From NCBI GenBank assembly GCA_019894735.1, contig JAGXOB010000133.1, forward strand, positions 1 through 6,154: a stretch of DNA of 6,154 nucleotides, read 5' to 3'. Each line of letters opens with the position of its first letter. Positions within the stretch are counted from its first letter, which is position 1. This document shows, piece by piece, positions 1-6,154 of this stretch. This DNA is from Promethearchaeota archaeon (lineage in GTDB: Archaea; Asgardarchaeota; Lokiarchaeia; Sigynarchaeales; SOKP01). The notes beneath the pieces were generated by a model. That model was not told where the DNA came from. It saw only the letters and a list, made by a program, of their open reading frames with translations, and searched no databases. The translations under genes and the position numbers were made by a program.

Positions 1-111
1 AATATTTGAAAGTAATAATTACTAAAAAAAACCCCATTATTTAGTAGAAAAGAGTTACATTGCCTATATCTTTTTGGAATTTTAAAAATCTTTTATAAAC
101 ATAACGTTATA

Positions 112-144
112 TTAACGATGATGCTGGGCAGATCCCCCAGTTAA
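112..144. other. GC-rich bulged hairpin in the leader region
   Basis: This is a GC-rich island in otherwise AT-rich DNA. TTAAC (112-116) can pair with GTTAA (140-144), and TGGG (125-128) with CCCA (136-139), leaving an 8-nt bulge GATGATGC on the 5' side. Pairing CTGGG with CCCAG is an alternative. It lies about 40 bp upstream of the TATA-like box of the next gene, so it is probably outside that mRNA. It could be a small RNA, the 3' end of an upstream transcript, or an operator. The bulge resembles a C box, but I see no matching D box. No function is assigned. Confidence 0.35.
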
Positions 145-180
145 CTACATTATTAATTCTAAAAATTATAAGCTTAAGAC

Positions 181-189
181 TTATAAATA
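181..189 (+). promoter_or_regulatory. Archaeal-type TATA box for the 239-1666 gene
   Basis: TTATAAATA with a purine-rich stretch just upstream (AAGAC) fits an archaeal BRE/TATA element. Transcription would be expected to start about 25 nt downstream, near 209-212, giving a leader of roughly 30 nt before the TTG codon. No Shine-Dalgarno sequence is visible in that leader. This is inferred from spacing and composition only. Confidence 0.5.
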
Positions 190-238
190 GTAAAGTCCAA
201 TTTTAGAAATAATTCAATAAAAATTTTATAAATTCAAT

Positions 239-1666
239 TTGAATAATATTACTCAAAACAAAGGTGAAATTAAAATCGAATCTAAAAATAGATTTTCAAA
301 TAAGTTTTTGATCTTGGTACTAGCAGTAATTATCGTGGTGAACCTTTGTATAGCGTTTTTGTTGCATTTTATAAAACCAAGCGTTCATCATCAAGCCCAC
401 GAAGTAATCATGACTTATCATTCAATATCTACACCTTTTATTGGTATAGTGTCGCTGCTTTTTCTCGAAATCATAGAGATACGTTCTAGGGTTTATAAAT
501 TAATTAAGTACACCGCAACTATAGGCGGAATTTGTGGAGGTATCGGTGCTATATTTTGGGCTTATACAGATTTGTTTCTTCTACACCACCTTTTTCTCGT
601 AGGATTAAGTCTCTTATTTCTGTGTGCTATCTTCTTGGTTTATGGTCTTATTCCTGGAAAAGAAGTGAAAGAAGCCGAATATTACAGGGATATTCCTAAA
701 ATTGCTGGATTTAATATTCTCCATTTAAGCTCTGTAATTATTATAGGAAGTATGATAGTCTTCGCAATTTTCGGTGCTCTAGCTGCTATTATAATGTTAG
801 CTATTGACGAACCCTTCTTTTTAGTAGAGTTTGAATACGTGTTCAACCGGGGAATAGACAAAGAATTGTTCCAAGAATTAGCTAGCTTTCACATGCGATT
901 GATGAACGCACTATTACTTACTGGAGTTTTAATACTTACTTTCAGATACACAAGAGTTAAAGGTAAATTCGCCAAGATTGGACTCTGGTTTATCTTAATT
1001 GGCGTCGTTGCCATGACGGCAGGATATTTTCTCGTGTTAGTTATGGGAAAAGCAGCAAATGCCATTTTAATGCCAGCGCGAGCATTGATATTGTTTACAG
1101 GTGTGATAGTTGCGTTTGACGGTTGGATTAAAGTATCCAAAGAAGAACTAGGTTCTGAATATGGTTCTGCCTCTTTTGGTTCTAAAATTATGGCACTATT
1201 AAAAAATCCTTTAAGATTGAGTATGTTCGTTACGTACTTCTTAGCAGGATTTATTGTGGTAATTCCAGGAATGTTAATTGTTACTGACCTTGAAACGTAC
1301 CGGGATATTTTGAATTATCCTGTCGAGCGCAATTTTGCTACCGGACATCCACATGTGCTTATTACTCTCGGAGCTATCGTAGTCTTTAGCATAATAATAC
1401 ACAATTTGATACCTAAGAACAAAATGCGGAAGATTATTGGATGGATTTTATTAGCAAGTCAATTAATTATCTTTCCCACAGCAGCGTTTTATTTCCTAAG
1501 AGATCCATTAGATACTGTCGTTGAATCTGCTTTAACACACATAATCATCGGTGGCTTAGTTCTTCTCTTCGTTGACCTGTTACTCTTTTTAGGCTTAACT
1601 TTACATCAAGCAATTTTTAAACGAGAAAAATTCTCTGAAGACATCAATCCTTTTGTTATCGAATAA
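239..1666 (+). CDS. Divergent heme-copper oxidase-superfamily subunit I-like membrane protein (12 TM)
   Basis: This 475-residue protein has about 12 membrane helices (roughly 22-43, 56-78, 91-110, 113-137, 160-188, 214-237, 245-268, 276-296, 329-348, 370-390, 398-418, 431-456). That is the usual size for a COX1/NorB subunit. Helix 2 has VIMTYHSISTPF with H61 at the low-spin-heme ligand position. Helix 4 has DLFLLHHLFLVG, like the helix-4 start of COX1. Helix 6 has LFQELASFHMRL with H218 where the first CuB histidine lies. Helix 10 has GHPHVLITLGAI (H370, H372), matching the HFHYVLSMGA heme-ligand signature, followed by IIHNLIP, like IHWFP in oxidases. The helix-7 His-His pair and the helix-6 Tyr (HPEVY in oxidases, HMRLM here) are absent, so a normal CuB site is unlikely. 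With the N-terminus inside, these histidines lie near the outer face, as in the family. The start is TTG: the frame is closed by a stop at 218-220, and the next in-frame ATG is codon 58, inside helix 2. The superfamily call rests on motif alignment by eye; NnrS-like is the main alternative. Confidence 0.72.
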   Translation: MNNITQNKGEIKIESKNRFSNKFLILVLAVIIVVNLCIAFLLHFIKPSVHHQAHEVIMTYHSISTPFIGIVSLLFLEIIEIRSRVYKLIKYTATIGGICGGIGAIFWAYTDLFLLHHLFLVGLSLLFLCAIFLVYGLIPGKEVKEAEYYRDIPKIAGFNILHLSSVIIIGSMIVFAIFGALAAIIMLAIDEPFFLVEFEYVFNRGIDKELFQELASFHMRLMNALLLTGVLILTFRYTRVKGKFAKIGLWFILIGVVAMTAGYFLVLVMGKAANAILMPARALILFTGVIVAFDGWIKVSKEELGSEYGSASFGSKIMALLKNPLRLSMFVTYFLAGFIVVIPGMLIVTDLETYRDILNYPVERNFATGHPHVLITLGAIVVFSIIIHNLIPKNKMRKIIGWILLASQLIIFPTAAFYFLRDPLDTVVESALTHIIIGGLVLLFVDLLLFLGLTLHQAIFKREKFSEDINPFVIE

Positions 1667-1683
1667 CGATAAATACAATACTA

Positions 1684-1705
1684 ATTAATTTTTTATTTTT
1701 TTTTT
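1684..1705 (+). terminator. Poly-T transcription terminator
   Basis: Two T runs (1689-1694 and a 10-T run at 1696-1705) follow the stop codon by about 20 bp, with no strong hairpin. This is the expected form of an intrinsic archaeal terminator. It separates this gene from the next one, which has its own TATA-like box. Confidence 0.5.
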
Positions 1706-1771
1706 AGTTCTTAAAAATTAAACTCAATATAGAACAATAAACAAATGTAGTATACAAGGGAGTAAAGCGAG

Positions 1772-1787
1772 AAATATATATAAAAGG
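1772..1787 (+). promoter_or_regulatory. TATA box for the SOR-like protein gene
   Basis: The run ATATATATAAAAG preceded by purine-rich GCGAGAA fits an archaeal BRE/TATA. Transcription would start near 1805, giving an AT-rich leader of about 70 nt without a Shine-Dalgarno sequence. A GTATAC palindrome lies just upstream, at about 1750-1755. With the terminator at 1684-1705, it suggests the gene is transcribed on its own. Confidence 0.45.
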
Positions 1788-1875
1788 CATTAACAATTAT
1801 AAATGAAAAAGTAAAAATATTAAATTACCTAACTATTTTTACAATTCATAAATTTAAAAAAAAAATCGATTAAAA

Positions 1876-2559
1876 ATGTCAAAAAAAAAGATATTTTACG
1901 CTTTGTCCGTTTTTTTGCTTCTCGGTATAACGATGAGCGTTCTAAACGCGAGAGCGCATGCTCCTATCAATATAGATATAGAATACGATGTCGATACAGA
2001 AAGCCTTAGCGTTATATATACTCACGGAGTTTCGGATCCTGAAGAACATTATATAGAATCAATCGAAGTGTGGATTAATGTCACACAAATCTGGGAGGAT
2101 CATGAACATCACACATGGTTCGATGATCGAGATAATTATGCAATTGCTATACGTCCTTCAGTAGCGCCTAATTATACATTCTACTACACTGAACAACCAA
2201 CCGATATAACTCCCATTACAACCTCACACACACTAGCTCATTATAACATTTCATTGCCAGGACTCCAGAAAACCGGAACACCTTTAGATTTACCGATAGA
2301 CGAAAATACTGGAGAACCAGTAGGATTTATAGAAGAAGGTCGGACTAATATTACTCTATCAGCTACTTGTTCCGACGGGGGAGTCCTAACAGAGCATTAT
2401 TACGTTGGACTACCTTACTACAACCCACATCTAACCTTCGCTGAAGCAGCAATGCCTGCAACTGTCTCGACGATCATAGTATTTGCATTGCTTTTTCTCT
2501 TACCGAAATTAGGTCAAAAAAACGCACCAAAATTAACCGAGGAAAAAAACAAACGTTAA
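1876..2559 (+). CDS. Exported, membrane-anchored protein with a superoxide-reductase-like / Ig-like ectodomain
   Basis: This 227-residue protein has a Lys-rich N-terminus and hydrophobic signal segment (about 5-25), an ectodomain (28-193), one C-terminal helix (about 194-210) and a basic tail, so most of it faces outward. The ectodomain has four N-x-S/T sequons (N68, N99, N124, N158), consistent with archaeal glycosylation. YTHGVSDPEEHYIESIEV (48-65) resembles the superoxide reductase segment with two iron-ligand histidines (HPM..xHYIEWIE). H28 in HAPI could match the first ligand histidine, and LSATCSDGG around C165 resembles the axial-Cys segment (CNxHG). The match is partial: the two histidines are 8 rather than 6 residues apart, and the His three residues after the Cys is Gly. 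A DHEHH cluster (75-79) could bind metal. It lies 209 bp after the heme-copper-like gene, so an electron-transfer or scavenging partnership is possible but unproven. A SoxZ-like or other Ig-fold protein is an alternative. The start is ATG with no Shine-Dalgarno sequence. Confidence 0.6.
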   Translation: MSKKKIFYALSVFLLLGITMSVLNARAHAPINIDIEYDVDTESLSVIYTHGVSDPEEHYIESIEVWINVTQIWEDHEHHTWFDDRDNYAIAIRPSVAPNYTFYYTEQPTDITPITTSHTLAHYNISLPGLQKTGTPLDLPIDENTGEPVGFIEEGRTNITLSATCSDGGVLTEHYYVGLPYYNPHLTFAEAAMPATVSTIIVFALLFLLPKLGQKNAPKLTEEKNKR

Positions 2560-2575
2560 ACAACAAATAAAAACA

Positions 2576-2597
2576 TTTTTTTTACTGTTTTATTTTT
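2576..2597 (+). terminator. Poly-T terminator after the SOR-like gene
   Basis: An 8-T run at 2576-2583 and further T-rich sequence to about 2597 start 17 bp after the stop codon. This fits an archaeal poly-T terminator and prevents read-through into the convergent gene. Confidence 0.5.
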
Positions 2598-2853
2598 AAT
2601 TTAATTCTATTTATAATTGTAATTAGCTAGTTAGATTTTAAAAAAACAACAACAAAATAAATGCTTTCATTTAATTTCCCTCCGCTAAAATTTGTAGATG
2701 ATCTAAAGATTTGGTTTTAAAACTAAAAATAATCAGCCCATTAACATGCAATAAATCTGATTTATTTTTTTCAAATATTCGTTAATTTAGTTAAAATCTC
2801 TTTATTTAATCTGTTTTCTTTAAAAAAAGAGTATCATCATTTAATCTTCAAAG
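2598..2853. other. Convergent intergenic region with no recognisable gene
   Basis: This stretch is extremely AT-rich and lies between two convergent terminators. The only short ATG frame I noticed (2661-2720, 19 codons) has no visible ribosome binding site or family resemblance. I see no RNA gene, repeat array or mobile element. It is most simply spacer and 3' UTR. Confidence 0.6.
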
Positions 2854-2876
2854 AAAAAGAAAAAAAGAAAAAAAAA
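2854..2876 (-). terminator. T-rich terminator of the minus-strand membrane gene
   Basis: On the minus strand this reads as three T runs separated by single C residues, including a 9-T run, about 35 nt past the stop codon. This fits a poly-T archaeal terminator. It faces the plus-strand terminator at 2576-2597. Confidence 0.5.
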
Positions 2877-2911
2877 TTAAACTTTATTAATAATATCTTT
2901 AGCTATTACTT

Positions 2912-3682
2912 TTATTTAGTTCTGATTAGTGCTGACGATGGTCGAATTTGACTATAAACCAAAGCAGTAGACAACATTGAAGTCCCAATGACTGATGTAA
3001 TTACACCACCTAGAAATTGAAAATCAACAGTTGTCCAAACATTGATTCCACCAACAACATGTGCGCCTCTCATGAACTCTGTCCCGAGGAATGAAACTGC
3101 TGCTAACCAGAAGAAAAACAAGGACATAAGAATCAATTGTTTTACGTATCGTCCAGACACATCGCTTGCTTCGATAAACTTTTTAGTCGCTACTTTAAAC
3201 CTTGGCACAAAATTCATCATAACAAGGACAACCATTACTAATAGATTTCCTATCGTACGTCCCCAATTAGGCGTACCAAAGTCAAAAGCTTCAGTGAAAC
3301 CAGCTGTATCTGAGATAATTGCGGGGAGAAGTCCAGTAATAAATCCTAAGAAAGAAACAACCATAGCAATTATAAAGAAACGCTTCCAAGGCATTTTTGT
3401 AAAATAGAAGTAAATCAAAAAGCCATAAGCAAATGCTACAATCCAGGTTATTACATTCGATGGTTGATAAACCCAACTAAAAGTACCTACATGAGTCATC
3501 ATATCAAACCATGAATGGTCTGCTGGAAACGGTGGAGAAGGCATACCCGTAGGGATATCCCACACTACACACATCGCTCCGTAAGCACTTAAGATTTGAG
3601 TAGCCGCAACAACCGCAAAAAGAGCTAAAATTATAATATTAAATATCAATTCAGATCGTTTTATGCGCGTTTTAAACACCAC
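2912..3682 (-). CDS. Six-helix integral membrane protein of unknown family
   Basis: This 256-residue protein has about six membrane helices (12-35, 75-94, 101-122, 142-160, 182-201, 219-245). An extended polar loop after helix 1 (36-74) carries Cys38, His56 and His64 in a Pro/Trp-rich context. I do not recognise the family. Residues that stand out are FGTPNWGRTIGN (135-146) before and into helix 4, and His208 in the helix 5-6 loop. There is no obvious enzyme motif, cupredoxin copper site or CxxCH heme motif. It is read divergently from the 4594 gene, with which it shares an identical 157-bp upstream sequence, so co-expression is likely. The GTG start is supported because this region lines up with the other gene's start (TGGTGTT in both). 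An accessory subunit of the neighbouring heme-copper-like proteins is possible, from context only. Confidence 0.7.
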   Translation of the reverse strand: MVFKTRIKRSELIFNIIILALFAVVAATQILSAYGAMCVVWDIPTGMPSPPFPADHSWFDMMTHVGTFSWVYQPSNVITWIVAFAYGFLIYFYFTKMPWKRFFIIAMVVSFLGFITGLLPAIISDTAGFTEAFDFGTPNWGRTIGNLLVMVVLVMMNFVPRFKVATKKFIEASDVSGRYVKQLILMSLFFFWLAAVSFLGTEFMRGAHVVGGINVWTTVDFQFLGGVITSVIGTSMLSTALVYSQIRPSSALIRTK

Positions 3683-3721
3683 TTATTTTTTTACGTTTTT
3701 TTTTAAAATTTTTTTTTAATA

Positions 3722-3739
3722 AATAGAAAAATTTCTATT
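3722..3739. promoter_or_regulatory. Dyad symmetry in the left arm, candidate operator
   Basis: AATAGAAA and TTTCTATT form 8-bp half-sites around a 2-bp centre. The dyad lies between a TATA-like box (3740-3749) and the GTG start. It is repeated exactly at 4533-4550 in front of the other divergent gene, so one dimeric regulator could control both. Functional status is inferred. Confidence 0.4.
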
Positions 3740-3761
3740 GATTATATAGTAGGATACAATC

Positions 3762-3772
3762 TAATTTATAAA
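3762..3772 (-). promoter_or_regulatory. TATA-like box of the minus-strand gene
   Basis: On the minus strand this reads TTTATAAATTA, a good archaeal TATA match. It is about 80 bp from the GTG start, giving a leader of some 55 nt. A second candidate, CTATATAATC (3740-3749, minus strand), is closer. Both are duplicated in the right arm. Confidence 0.45.
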
Positions 3773-3867
3773 GATTCATTTTTTTTTTAGAATTTTCTCT
3801 TATACTCTTTAGCTAATGAATAACCATTCAGTTTCTATCCTTAACAATAAAAATTTACAGCAAACTC

Positions 3868-4404
3868 TTATATGGAACAGAAAAAAATTCTAAATATAAT
3901 TTTTTATATTGTCAGCCTTCTTAATGAAATTTAACAAAAATTCTGGTGTGTATTTTGATAAATCAGAAAGAATTCCAATATTGTAAAGCTAAAGCTTCTT
4001 TTCACATATCTCAGGAACTAATAAGTAGGAAAAAGTTCTCAATATGTTGATAAAGGATTTTGAGCGAAGTTGCAAGAAAAATCCGAAGTAAGGGATTAAT
4101 GCGCGGGGAGGCACGATCGAAAAAGGGGAGTATTGTAGGATTTAAAGGAATTTTCATCTTTTTTGTATATATACCATAAAGCTATAATCTAGTGGCAGGA
4201 CGATTTGAAAAGACTCGATATACCGAGCTATTATAGTTACTGTTGTCTATCAGAATCCAATTTTACTTCGAAAAAAGACCAAAATGGTGAAAATCTCTAT
4301 GATTCTTACGATCTCCAGTTTTTCTTGAATGTTCTTGAAGGTTTTTTCGCGGGAGATATTTTGAAAAAAGGAATATTATTTTTTTATAAGACAGTTCTAT
4401 ATAG
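3868..4404. other. Spacer between the inverted-repeat arms, no convincing gene
   Basis: These 537 bp lie between the two arms. They contain a hairpin (GGATTTT 4055-4061 with AAAATCC 4078-4084), a GC- and purine-rich patch around 4100-4132, and a GTATATATAC palindrome (4165-4174) that could be a TATA box. CTATAAT (4182-4188) can pair with ATTATAG (4230-4236), enclosing a small CTCG/CGAG hairpin (4214-4227). Part of this resembles a tRNA D arm, but no complete tRNA can be folded. The only open frame of note (4205-4417, TTG start, 70 codons) runs into the right arm and matches nothing I know. The spacer could hold an RNA or the remains of an inserted element. Confidence 0.5.
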
Positions 4405-4499
4405 GAGTTTGCTGTAAATTTTTATTGTTAAGGATAGAAACTGAATGGTTATTCATTAGCTAAAGAGTATAAGAGAAAATTCTAAAAAAAAAATGAATC

Positions 4500-4510
4500 T
4501 TTATAAATTA
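4500..4510 (+). promoter_or_regulatory. TATA-like box of the 4594 gene
   Basis: TTTATAAATTA follows an A-rich stretch. Transcription would start near 4530, giving a leader of about 65 nt. CTATATAATC at 4523-4532 is an alternative box that would give a leader of about 40 nt. Both are mirrored in the left arm. Confidence 0.45.
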
Positions 4511-4532
4511 GATTGTATCCTACTATATAATC

Positions 4533-4550
4533 AATAGAAATTTTTCTATT
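4533..4550. promoter_or_regulatory. Dyad symmetry in the right arm, candidate operator
   Basis: This is the copy of the AATAGAAA-N2-TTTCTATT dyad found at 3722-3739. It sits at or just after the predicted transcription start, a typical position for an archaeal repressor. It could equally form a hairpin in the mRNA leader. Confidence 0.4.
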
Positions 4551-4593
4551 TATTAAAAAAATTAAATTATAAAAAAAAAAGTGATGATATAAA

Positions 4594-5316
4594 ATGGTGT
4601 TATTTCAAACTGTATGGGACTTCAGTTATTATTTTGGTAGCGGAAATGCTGCAAAAATTGTAATGTGGGTTTCAGCGATTATCGGATTCATCTTCGCATT
4701 TTTTCTGTTAGCATCTTACCTCAATCATAGGAAACCTGAACACTTTTACTGGGGAATTTCTTTCGCTTTGTTGTGGATAAATACTCACATCGCCATAGCA
4801 GGTGGTAGTTACGCGTATTTTCTACAAGAAGTACCAGCAACTTTTTTCGCATTAATGGTAGGACTGTTTGCAGTGGGTCTATTTAAAAACGTGAAACCTG
4901 AAAGTAAATTGGGAAAATGGCTATTAATGTATGTTATTGCTATGTCCCTCGCAATAGGTTTCTTTAAACAGGAGACTGTAAATATAGTACTTGGCACTCC
5001 CGCAATCGTTGCACCTATTTTAGTGATGGCTTTACACATTCCAATGGCAATTTTAATAATTTGGCTTCCTCTCACGACGAGAGACGAAAATGGAAAATCA
5101 GCAATCATATTTTCAATAGCAGGCATACTAATGGCTATTGTTGGAATACTTTTAGCTATTGCAACCCTTGGTATTCTTGCGACTGACTTCTATCTTGAAA
5201 TAGTTTTCAACGCGTTTCCTTTCGTTTACCTGTTAGCTGCCTTAGGTTTTGCTTGGGGAACATTTGTTCCTAAAAGATGGGGCTTTAGTATTGCAGGTAT
5301 CGAGTTAGAAGACTAA
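4594..5316 (+). CDS. Seven-helix integral membrane protein of unknown family
   Basis: This 240-residue protein has seven predicted helices (about 22-42, 49-67, 79-97, 108-125, 132-157, 170-192, 203-224) and short loops. I cannot name a family. Visible features are SYLNHRKPEHFYWGISFALLW (41-61, basic loop into helix 2), His65 in helix 2, His148 in helix 5 and Trp221 in helix 7. There is no retinal-binding Lys in helix 7, so it is not a rhodopsin, and it lacks the sequence features of oxidase subunit III. The ATG start is preceded by GTGAT (4581-4585) at 8 nt, a weak Shine-Dalgarno match. The shared upstream arm suggests co-regulation with the divergent six-helix protein. The second heme-copper-like gene follows 244 bp downstream in the same direction. 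A heme-binding or assembly role is possible from context but unsupported by motifs. Confidence 0.72.
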   Translation: MVLFQTVWDFSYYFGSGNAAKIVMWVSAIIGFIFAFFLLASYLNHRKPEHFYWGISFALLWINTHIAIAGGSYAYFLQEVPATFFALMVGLFAVGLFKNVKPESKLGKWLLMYVIAMSLAIGFFKQETVNIVLGTPAIVAPILVMALHIPMAILIIWLPLTTRDENGKSAIIFSIAGILMAIVGILLAIATLGILATDFYLEIVFNAFPFVYLLAALGFAWGTFVPKRWGFSIAGIELED

Positions 5317-5349
5317 GCTAAATTTATCGAAAAGCTTTTATGCAATAAA

Positions 5350-5369
5350 TTTTTTTTTCTTTTTATTTT
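5350..5369 (+). terminator. Poly-T terminator after the seven-helix gene
   Basis: A 9-T run (5350-5358) followed by shorter T runs to 5369 starts about 33 bp past the stop codon, without a strong hairpin. It suggests the next gene has its own promoter. Confidence 0.5.
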
Positions 5370-5495
5370 GTTATCAACTTCTAAGAATAACTTTCATTAT
5401 GCAAGCATAACTTTTAATAAATTGATATTCAATAAAACTCATCTATTAAATACTAGATATATCATAGTTAAGTATTATACGAATGATAAGCAAAA

Positions 5496-5505
5496 GATAT
5501 ATTAA
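5496..5505 (+). promoter_or_regulatory. Possible TATA box for the truncated heme-copper-like gene
   Basis: GATATATTAA preceded by CAAAA is a plausible BRE/TATA, with a start near 5525-5530 and a leader of about 35 nt to the GTG at 5561. The surrounding DNA is so AT-rich that other placements are possible. Confidence 0.35.
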
Positions 5506-5560
5506 TCAATAAGAATTTAATTAGTAAAAAAAAATTATTTTTTAATTTGTCCAAACAAAG

Positions 5561-6154
5561 GTGTTTAAAATAGAAATAGAAACAGAAACAGTCCCGATGC
5601 AAACTGGTCTAGAATCCTCAATGGAAACGCAAGAGATGAAGCCTGAAACAGAAACGAGTTTTAAGAAGATACATTACGTATTGTTCCTATTCGTATTTGT
5701 TCAAGTTATTTGGTATATGACTTTTTCCGAACCTTTGACTGTCCTCATCGGAGGAGAGCCGATCTGGCCTTTCTTCCTTAACGACGATGTAATATCAAGA
5801 ACTGCTCGACTTGTCATGATCTATCACTCGCTAGCTATACCCTTTTTTGTAGCGAATGTATTCTGGATATTAGAACACTACGAGATCCGTCCGAAGTTGC
5901 TTCCAACTTTAAAAATTCTTTTAGTACCTAGTGCGTTTATTGTAGGTATAAACGGAATGCTTTTTGCCTATACACGTCTAAGACTTTTCCACGAGCTTTT
6001 CACTTTTGGTTTACTGCTGGTTTTTATAGGTGGAATAGTATTTATTGTTTCAGCTTGGCCAGTTAAAGGGAGATTTCCAAAACATAATCCGCTTGGATCT
6101 ACGTTCCGTGGATTGAACTTAGAGTATTTCAACCTTGTTGTTTTAGCAATATGC
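5561..6154 (+). CDS. Second heme-copper-superfamily-like membrane protein (partial, 3' end beyond window)
   Basis: 198 codons are visible, open to the last base, covering helices 1-4 and the start of helix 5. The product is a paralog of the 239-1666 protein. VMIYHSLAIPF (85-95) matches its helix 2, with H89 at the low-spin-heme ligand position. FAYTRLRLFHELFTFGLL (135-152) matches its helix 4, with H144 equivalent to H116. The two align without gaps from helix 2 to helix 4; I count 27 identities in 79 positions, and the H-to-H spacing is 55 in both. Histidines in the loop before helix 2 of the first copy (50, 51, 54) are not conserved here. An acidic, Thr/Glu-rich tail precedes helix 1. GTG 5561 is the first start after a stop at 5543-5545; ATG 5597, 5621 or 5636 are alternatives. 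Helices 6, 7 and 10, which decide whether a catalytic metal site exists, lie outside the window. Confidence 0.68.
   Translation, partial: MFKIEIETETVPMQTGLESSMETQEMKPETETSFKKIHYVLFLFVFVQVIWYMTFSEPLTVLIGGEPIWPFFLNDDVISRTARLVMIYHSLAIPFFVANVFWILEHYEIRPKLLPTLKILLVPSAFIVGINGMLFAYTRLRLFHELFTFGLLLVFIGGIVFIVSAWPVKGRFPKHNPLGSTFRGLNLEYFNLVVLAIC

Follow-up and report, generated by a model that had tools for sequence, protein, structure and literature searches.

Heme-copper oxidases (HCOs) are regarded as enzymes that reduce O2 or NO and whose histidine metal site is largely fixed. Here, we analyze a stretch of 6,154 nucleotides (the window) from a Promethearchaeota archaeon (Asgardarchaeota, Lokiarchaeia, Sigynarchaeales; GenBank assembly GCA_019894735.1, contig JAGXOB010000133.1, positions 1 to 6,154 of the forward strand), in which gene A (239..1666, forward strand; 475 amino acids (aa), TTG start) encodes a membrane protein with a predicted 12-helix HCO fold and without most of the histidines of the CuB region. 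The window also holds the genes SORl, TM256 and TM7 and, at its end, the first 198 aa of a paralog of A with the same fold, B (5561..6154, forward strand), which continues beyond the window and whose full-length relatives keep all seven histidines of the family described below.

Ligand positions kept and lost in A

The structure model of A has 12 transmembrane helices arranged in the HCO fold, as the preliminary description of this DNA had proposed from the letters alone, with helices I to VI at residues 21-45, 52-78, 83-109, 113-137, 160-188 and 210-237, helices VII and VIII in a single DSSP run at 243-310, and the remaining helices at 324-349, 357-390, 395-420 and 426-460. Its histidines are at positions 43, 50, 51, 54, 61, 116, 117, 162, 218, 370, 372, 388, 434 and 456, and none falls within 243-310. 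Relatives of A were recovered by database search (64 sequences, identity 52-98%; the named ones are Asgard archaea), and conservation was counted in the 50 sequences of at least 400 aa out of 65, the window's A included. These were aligned with 102 B and 28 D sequences, D being the B-like proteins of other Asgards; a second alignment combined 50 D with 64 W (those of the 68 listed W with at least 400 aa). W is a further group reached by a profile search that returned 188 proteins, the best 120 of which were examined; five W members among the matches listed carry an organism name, all of them Anaerolineae bacteria.

The heme ligand positions are conserved throughout. H61 (codon 419..421), at the low-spin heme ligand position of helix II, is present in all 44 A sequences that cover the column (102/102 B, 27/27 D), and H218 of helix VI as well as H370 and H372 of helix X (codons of H370-P371-H372 at 1346..1354; high-spin and low-spin heme ligand positions) are each found in 50/50, these four being the residues that the preliminary description had placed at ligand sites of the superfamily. 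Seven histidines, in columns 61, 116, 218, 220, 274, 370 and 372, are invariant in every covering B, D and W sequence. A keeps five of them, together with E197, R355 and E363, and lacks His220 and His274. In their place stand R220 (codons of H218-M219-R220 at 890..898) and N274 at the end of helix VII (1058..1060), each in 50/50 A sequences, whereas both columns are His in 102/102 B and 28/28 D, and in 50/50 D and 64/64 W of the second alignment. No His occurs in column 274 of any of the 50 A sequences; any His within columns 243-296 is seen in 3 of the 50, and in the full alignment of 65 column 294 is His in three. A thus retains one (H218) of the three conserved histidines of the CuB region, and the claims that helix VII lacks histidine and that the CuB site is mostly lost are borne out. 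The preliminary description had also suggested a second metal site that is vacant, different or without copper; what it missed is that B keeps the two histidines absent from A, so that the vacancy looks derived.

Four residues after the helix VI histidine, oxidases of HCO families A and B have Tyr and cNOR has Glu. This position (column 222) is Met in 39/50 A sequences and otherwise Thr or Ile, with Glu never among the commonest letters and no HH on helix VII, so the reported absence of both the oxidase Tyr and the cNOR-type Glu also holds. Elsewhere in the family the column is Met (49/50 D, 64/64 W) or Gln (101/102 B).

Other histidines of A are conserved as well. H116 and H117 (codons 584..589) lie at the outer start of helix IV; the former belongs to the family set (50/50 A, 102/102 B, 28/28 D) and the latter is specific to A (49/50 vs 0/102 B and 0/28 D). 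Besides these two, the preliminary description had left H50 (37/38), H54 (35/37) and H388 (49/50) unlisted. The outward histidines H43 (16/16), H50, H51 (33/38), H54 and H117 have no counterpart in B and almost none in D, and H50, H54, H117 and H388 are gains of A. Judged from model helix ends and loop charges, the conserved histidines would sit in the outer third of the membrane.

The ratio of non-synonymous to synonymous substitution (dN/dS) in three pairs of A genes is 0.07-0.11, which together with the residue conservation argues against a decaying gene; we consider a pseudogene unlikely. The synonymous divergence (dS) of A against two loci with the same gene cluster, L001 and L002, is 0.86-2.12 (three pairs), whereas the values for its cluster neighbours SORl (0.25-0.34) and B (0.38-0.56) are far lower. 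A differing history of A, or homogenised neighbours, may lie behind this.

An unnamed family and its kinship with HCOs

Full-length B of L001 is 25-27% identical to A (E about 1e-25), and in profile comparisons A matches B at 100% (E 8.5e-48) and D at 100% (E 1.1e-57). Prometheoarchaeum also has a homolog of B, DSAG12_01126. In a midpoint-rooted tree of a selected subset of 143 sequences, A forms one clade (support 1.0) on a stem of 1.52, against 0.67 for the stem of B, and is sister to B with moderate support (0.75) inside the Asgard diversity. Lacking His220 and His274, A is a derived paralog and an atypical member of its family, and these residues were probably lost secondarily, after duplication, in a gene that is under purifying selection.

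Searches with A, B, five relatives of A and 10 members of the wider family gave no Pfam or NCBIfam match that reached its cut-off, and A has none in either database up to E 1. No significant match to an unrelated 12-helix family, which the preliminary description had named as the outcome that would speak against its view, was obtained. A literature search with subscription papers mostly outside its reach, which included the accessible portions of PMC12808453, PMC12993045, PMC6737245, PMC11459464 and PMC9258230, gave no description of the family. A parallel is offered by fam02696, which the accessible portion of PMC9258230 reports from Halobacteria near cbb3 or NorB genes, without Pfam annotation and distantly homologous to HCO subunit I; our family resembles it by description only, on these same two points. 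The A/B/D/W family is apparently undescribed and unnamed. The suggestion of an undescribed superfamily branch stands in that respect, with the amendment that the branch is the whole family and not A alone.

Sequence kinship with HCOs was assessed with hhalign. The combined A+B+D profile matched A-type COX1 (PF00115) of Heimdall-type Asgards over its full length, at 93% (E 3.3e-7, 436 columns) with 18 Asgard COX1 sequences and at 82% with 25. Single profiles against COX1 gave 70-76% for B, 83-88% for D and 17-22% for a wide set with bacterial members. Controls (reversed COX1 and three unrelated membrane families) stayed at 0.1-1.7%, and as a yardstick the COX1 profile itself scored 76-80% against NorB and 98-99% against CcoN. 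In the COX1 alignment H61 falls on the helix II His, H370 and H372 fall on the HFH of helix X, and column 274 falls on the HH region of helix VII. A low-scoring Asgard HCO set gave 2-16% against four profiles. Comparisons with CcoN and NorB reached at most 27%, similarity to CcoN being weak across the profiles tried (0.4-27%). Sequence searches of the PDB returned no HCO for A (best E 5 or worse) and none for a D+B profile, and PF00115 had no match to A up to E 1 and none in the whole genomes G001 and G002.

The site differs from each known class. The O2 reductases of HCO families A, B and C have a three-His CuB with HH on helix VII, where A has no His and a fixed N274; in CcoN, the cbb3 subunit of family C, helix VII likewise carries HH, against none in A and a single His in B, D and W. 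The HPxVY and HH of COX1 are both absent from A and B, as are the HLWVE on helix VI and HH on helix VII of NorB and qNOR, a motif present in loci L120 and L117. The HxHxM of NnrS (PF05940) resembles the HLHIM of D and W; the profile comparison, with three NnrS sequences only, gave 0.1%, and A has no PF05940 match. By the marks of the superfamily, A has the 12-helix fold in its model and, as aligned, the helix II His and helix X HxH positions. We class it as a relative with the HCO fold, within an unnamed family, and as neither an oxidase nor a nitric oxide reductase (NOR).

Heme genes and the gene neighbourhood

The family is linked to a heme O synthase-like gene, CtaB. In L001 and L002 the gene order is A, SORl, TM256, TM7, B, CtaB-like, TM202, GlcD-like and GlcF-like, and the window has its A-to-B stretch in this same order. 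On the heme o synthase model, the CtaB-like proteins score 207.7 bits in L001, 217.0 in L002 and 214.2 in L060 (cut-off 210.3). A survey of 227 Asgard genomes with the A profile, which may miss distant family members in other genomes, gave a strong family match in 36 after two weak short matches (G010, G122) had been removed from 38. Counted by hand, and with E 1e-39 or better taken as strong, CtaB is strong in 36/36 of these genomes vs 11/191 others, and in 30 of the 36 (not in the other 6) CtaB and the family gene share a contig and are no more than about 4 kb apart. COX1 exceeds its cut-off in 5 of the 11 genomes that have strong CtaB and no family match (below it in 6) and in 8 of the 36 family genomes.

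Further heme genes lie near three D genes. In G045 they encode CcmF-like and CcmC-like proteins, CcmB, an ABC ATPase and a protein whose CcmE match is below threshold; in G053, a CcmF-like protein, a cytochrome b561 and a protein that has six CxxCH; and in G040, a CcmF-like protein. HxlR-family regulators adjoin D genes in L060 (7805-8323) and L072 (11764-12198), a hint of redox or stress control.

Downstream of A, SORl (1876..2559, forward strand) encodes 227 aa with a likely signal peptide, a C-terminal helix and a His/Cys pattern (HxP...THG...HY...C) like that of superoxide reductase (SOR), with Gly at the would-be last His ligand. Of the five iron-ligand positions, four seem to be retained, each in 13/14 rows (two rows are halves of one gene). 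The match to the SOR profile is weak (5.8%, E 0.0065), the structure model is unusable (predicted local distance difference test (pLDDT) 46), and a SOR identity is a lead only, listed among our rejected candidates. Among 20 family genomes tested, 15 have true SOR genes at other places; these 20, which also served for the heme genes below, were our own pick from the 36, and their completeness is not given. The membrane protein TM256 (2912..3682, reverse strand) has one invariant His (20/20) and one conserved Cys (19/20), TM7 (4594..5316, forward strand), also a membrane protein, has two invariant His (19/19), and TM202 has four. A few genes upstream of A lie what we take to be YeeE-like and DsrE/DsrH-like sulfur-relay genes (L001 810-2916, L002 3202-5301).

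Between the divergent TM256 and TM7, the window carries an inverted repeat (3696-3878 and 4394-4576; 183 nt arms, 95% complementary, 515 nt apart). TM256 and TM7 are separated by 911 bp in the window vs <300 bp in L001 and L002, which suggests that the repeat is an insert or a fold-back of the assembly; none of 120 loci contains a 23-mer taken from its arm. Rfam and tRNA scans of the window returned no match.

Possible roles of A

Of a putative three-His site that B keeps, A has only H218, and we therefore read A as the copper-free partner and B as the reductase. To the proposal that A is a heme-bearing, copper-free putative partner of reductase B in one complex with heme O we give about an even chance. 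In such a membrane complex, heme O would be made by farnesylating scavenged heme, and B would hold the reactive heme-metal centre and reduce an oxidised small molecule such as O2 or NO close to the outer face of the membrane; with neither the oxidase Tyr nor the NOR Glu in place, no result points to a particular substrate. A would bind heme but no copper and act as an electron-transfer or stabilising subunit, and its extra outward histidines (H50, H51, H54 and H117) may be where electrons enter or where the secreted protein encoded next to A docks.

Several observations weigh against this proposal. The A profile alone scores 1-4% against COX1, no better than one control (1.7%), so that A by itself does not stand out from the controls and its sequence kinship with HCOs appears to run via B and D; in addition, an eight-column gap in the COX1 alignment shifts helix VI, which carries H218, out of register, although H218 lies in the sixth helix of the model. 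An HCO resemblance due merely to a common helical arrangement seems highly improbable to us. B also occurs without A, as in L080, which makes A an add-on that B does not need everywhere. The main weakness of a heme-based reading is supply. Of the 20 family genomes tested, 18, the A-holding G001 and G002 among them, lack HemB and HemC, which are present only in G035 and G040; control genomes have HemB in 11/14 and HemC in 11/14. Heme A would be made by CtaA, which is found in 2 of the 20, namely G035 and G040. A search of the 20 genomes for the heme-synthesis enzyme AhbD gave nothing over its cut-off, with many cross-hits from other radical-SAM proteins. With HemB and HemC missing, G001, G002 and 16 other family genomes are apparent heme auxotrophs despite their heme O synthase-like gene; the alternatives are heme import and, for part of the family, a different cofactor. 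Of the 18 genomes that lack HemB, 8 have heme-handling proteins of PF01578 above the cut-off (in two of these, stops interrupt the match), which makes heme use plausible there; no PF01578 protein was found in G001 or G002.

These gaps in heme synthesis, together with the long stem of the A clade and the loss of two of seven family histidines, favour the idea that A keeps the HCO fold and is no longer a heme protein, with another cofactor or a structural or transport function. H61, H218, H370 and H372 are nevertheless invariant under purifying selection and the family is linked to CtaB, and we judge this idea unlikely. The same auxotrophy could be turned the other way, with A as an HCO turned carrier that captures or relays heme: it would pick up scavenged heme at the outer face and pass it on to CtaB and B. 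The A-specific outward histidines (H43, H50, H51, H54, H117) and the linkage to a heme-modifying enzyme would suit that role, but heme import by A has no direct support, five loci have B and CtaB without A (L074, L076, L077, L079, L080), and its probability is small, slightly below that of a non-heme A.

A might itself reduce a substrate of its own and have a high-spin heme and a second site that is vacant or unusual, given that H370 and H218 are kept and R220 and N274 are fixed in all 50 sequences. It lacks the Tyr, the Glu and the three-His site of known catalytic HCOs, and the adjacent B has the fuller site; we rate this on a par with heme relay. A gas sensor, binding heme without catalysis and coupled to a signalling partner, would agree with heme positions that lack a metal site and with the HxlR regulators beside two D genes. 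These regulators are found at D loci and not at A, no signalling domain was detected in A with Pfam or NCBIfam, and we regard a sensor as very unlikely.

Returning to the pairing of a reductase B with a copper-free A, we tentatively extend it to the family as a possible undescribed HCO branch whose metal site differs (an HxH in helix VI and a single His at the VII/VIII end), in Asgards of anaerobic lineages that would be unable to make heme and would use heme O farnesylated from scavenged heme. In Lokiarchaeia it would be a two-subunit system of a catalytic B and a heme-only relay A with its copper site dismantled. The A-B pair amounts to an experiment of nature, with copper-site ligands removed and heme ligand positions kept, and a heme O synthase-like gene without HemB and HemC gives the testable claim that imported heme is modified and used. 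An altered-site HCO branch, present in bacteria and in Asgards mostly without COX1, would bear on the origin of the superfamily and its metal site, and on the electron acceptors usable by relatives of the eukaryotic host lineage.
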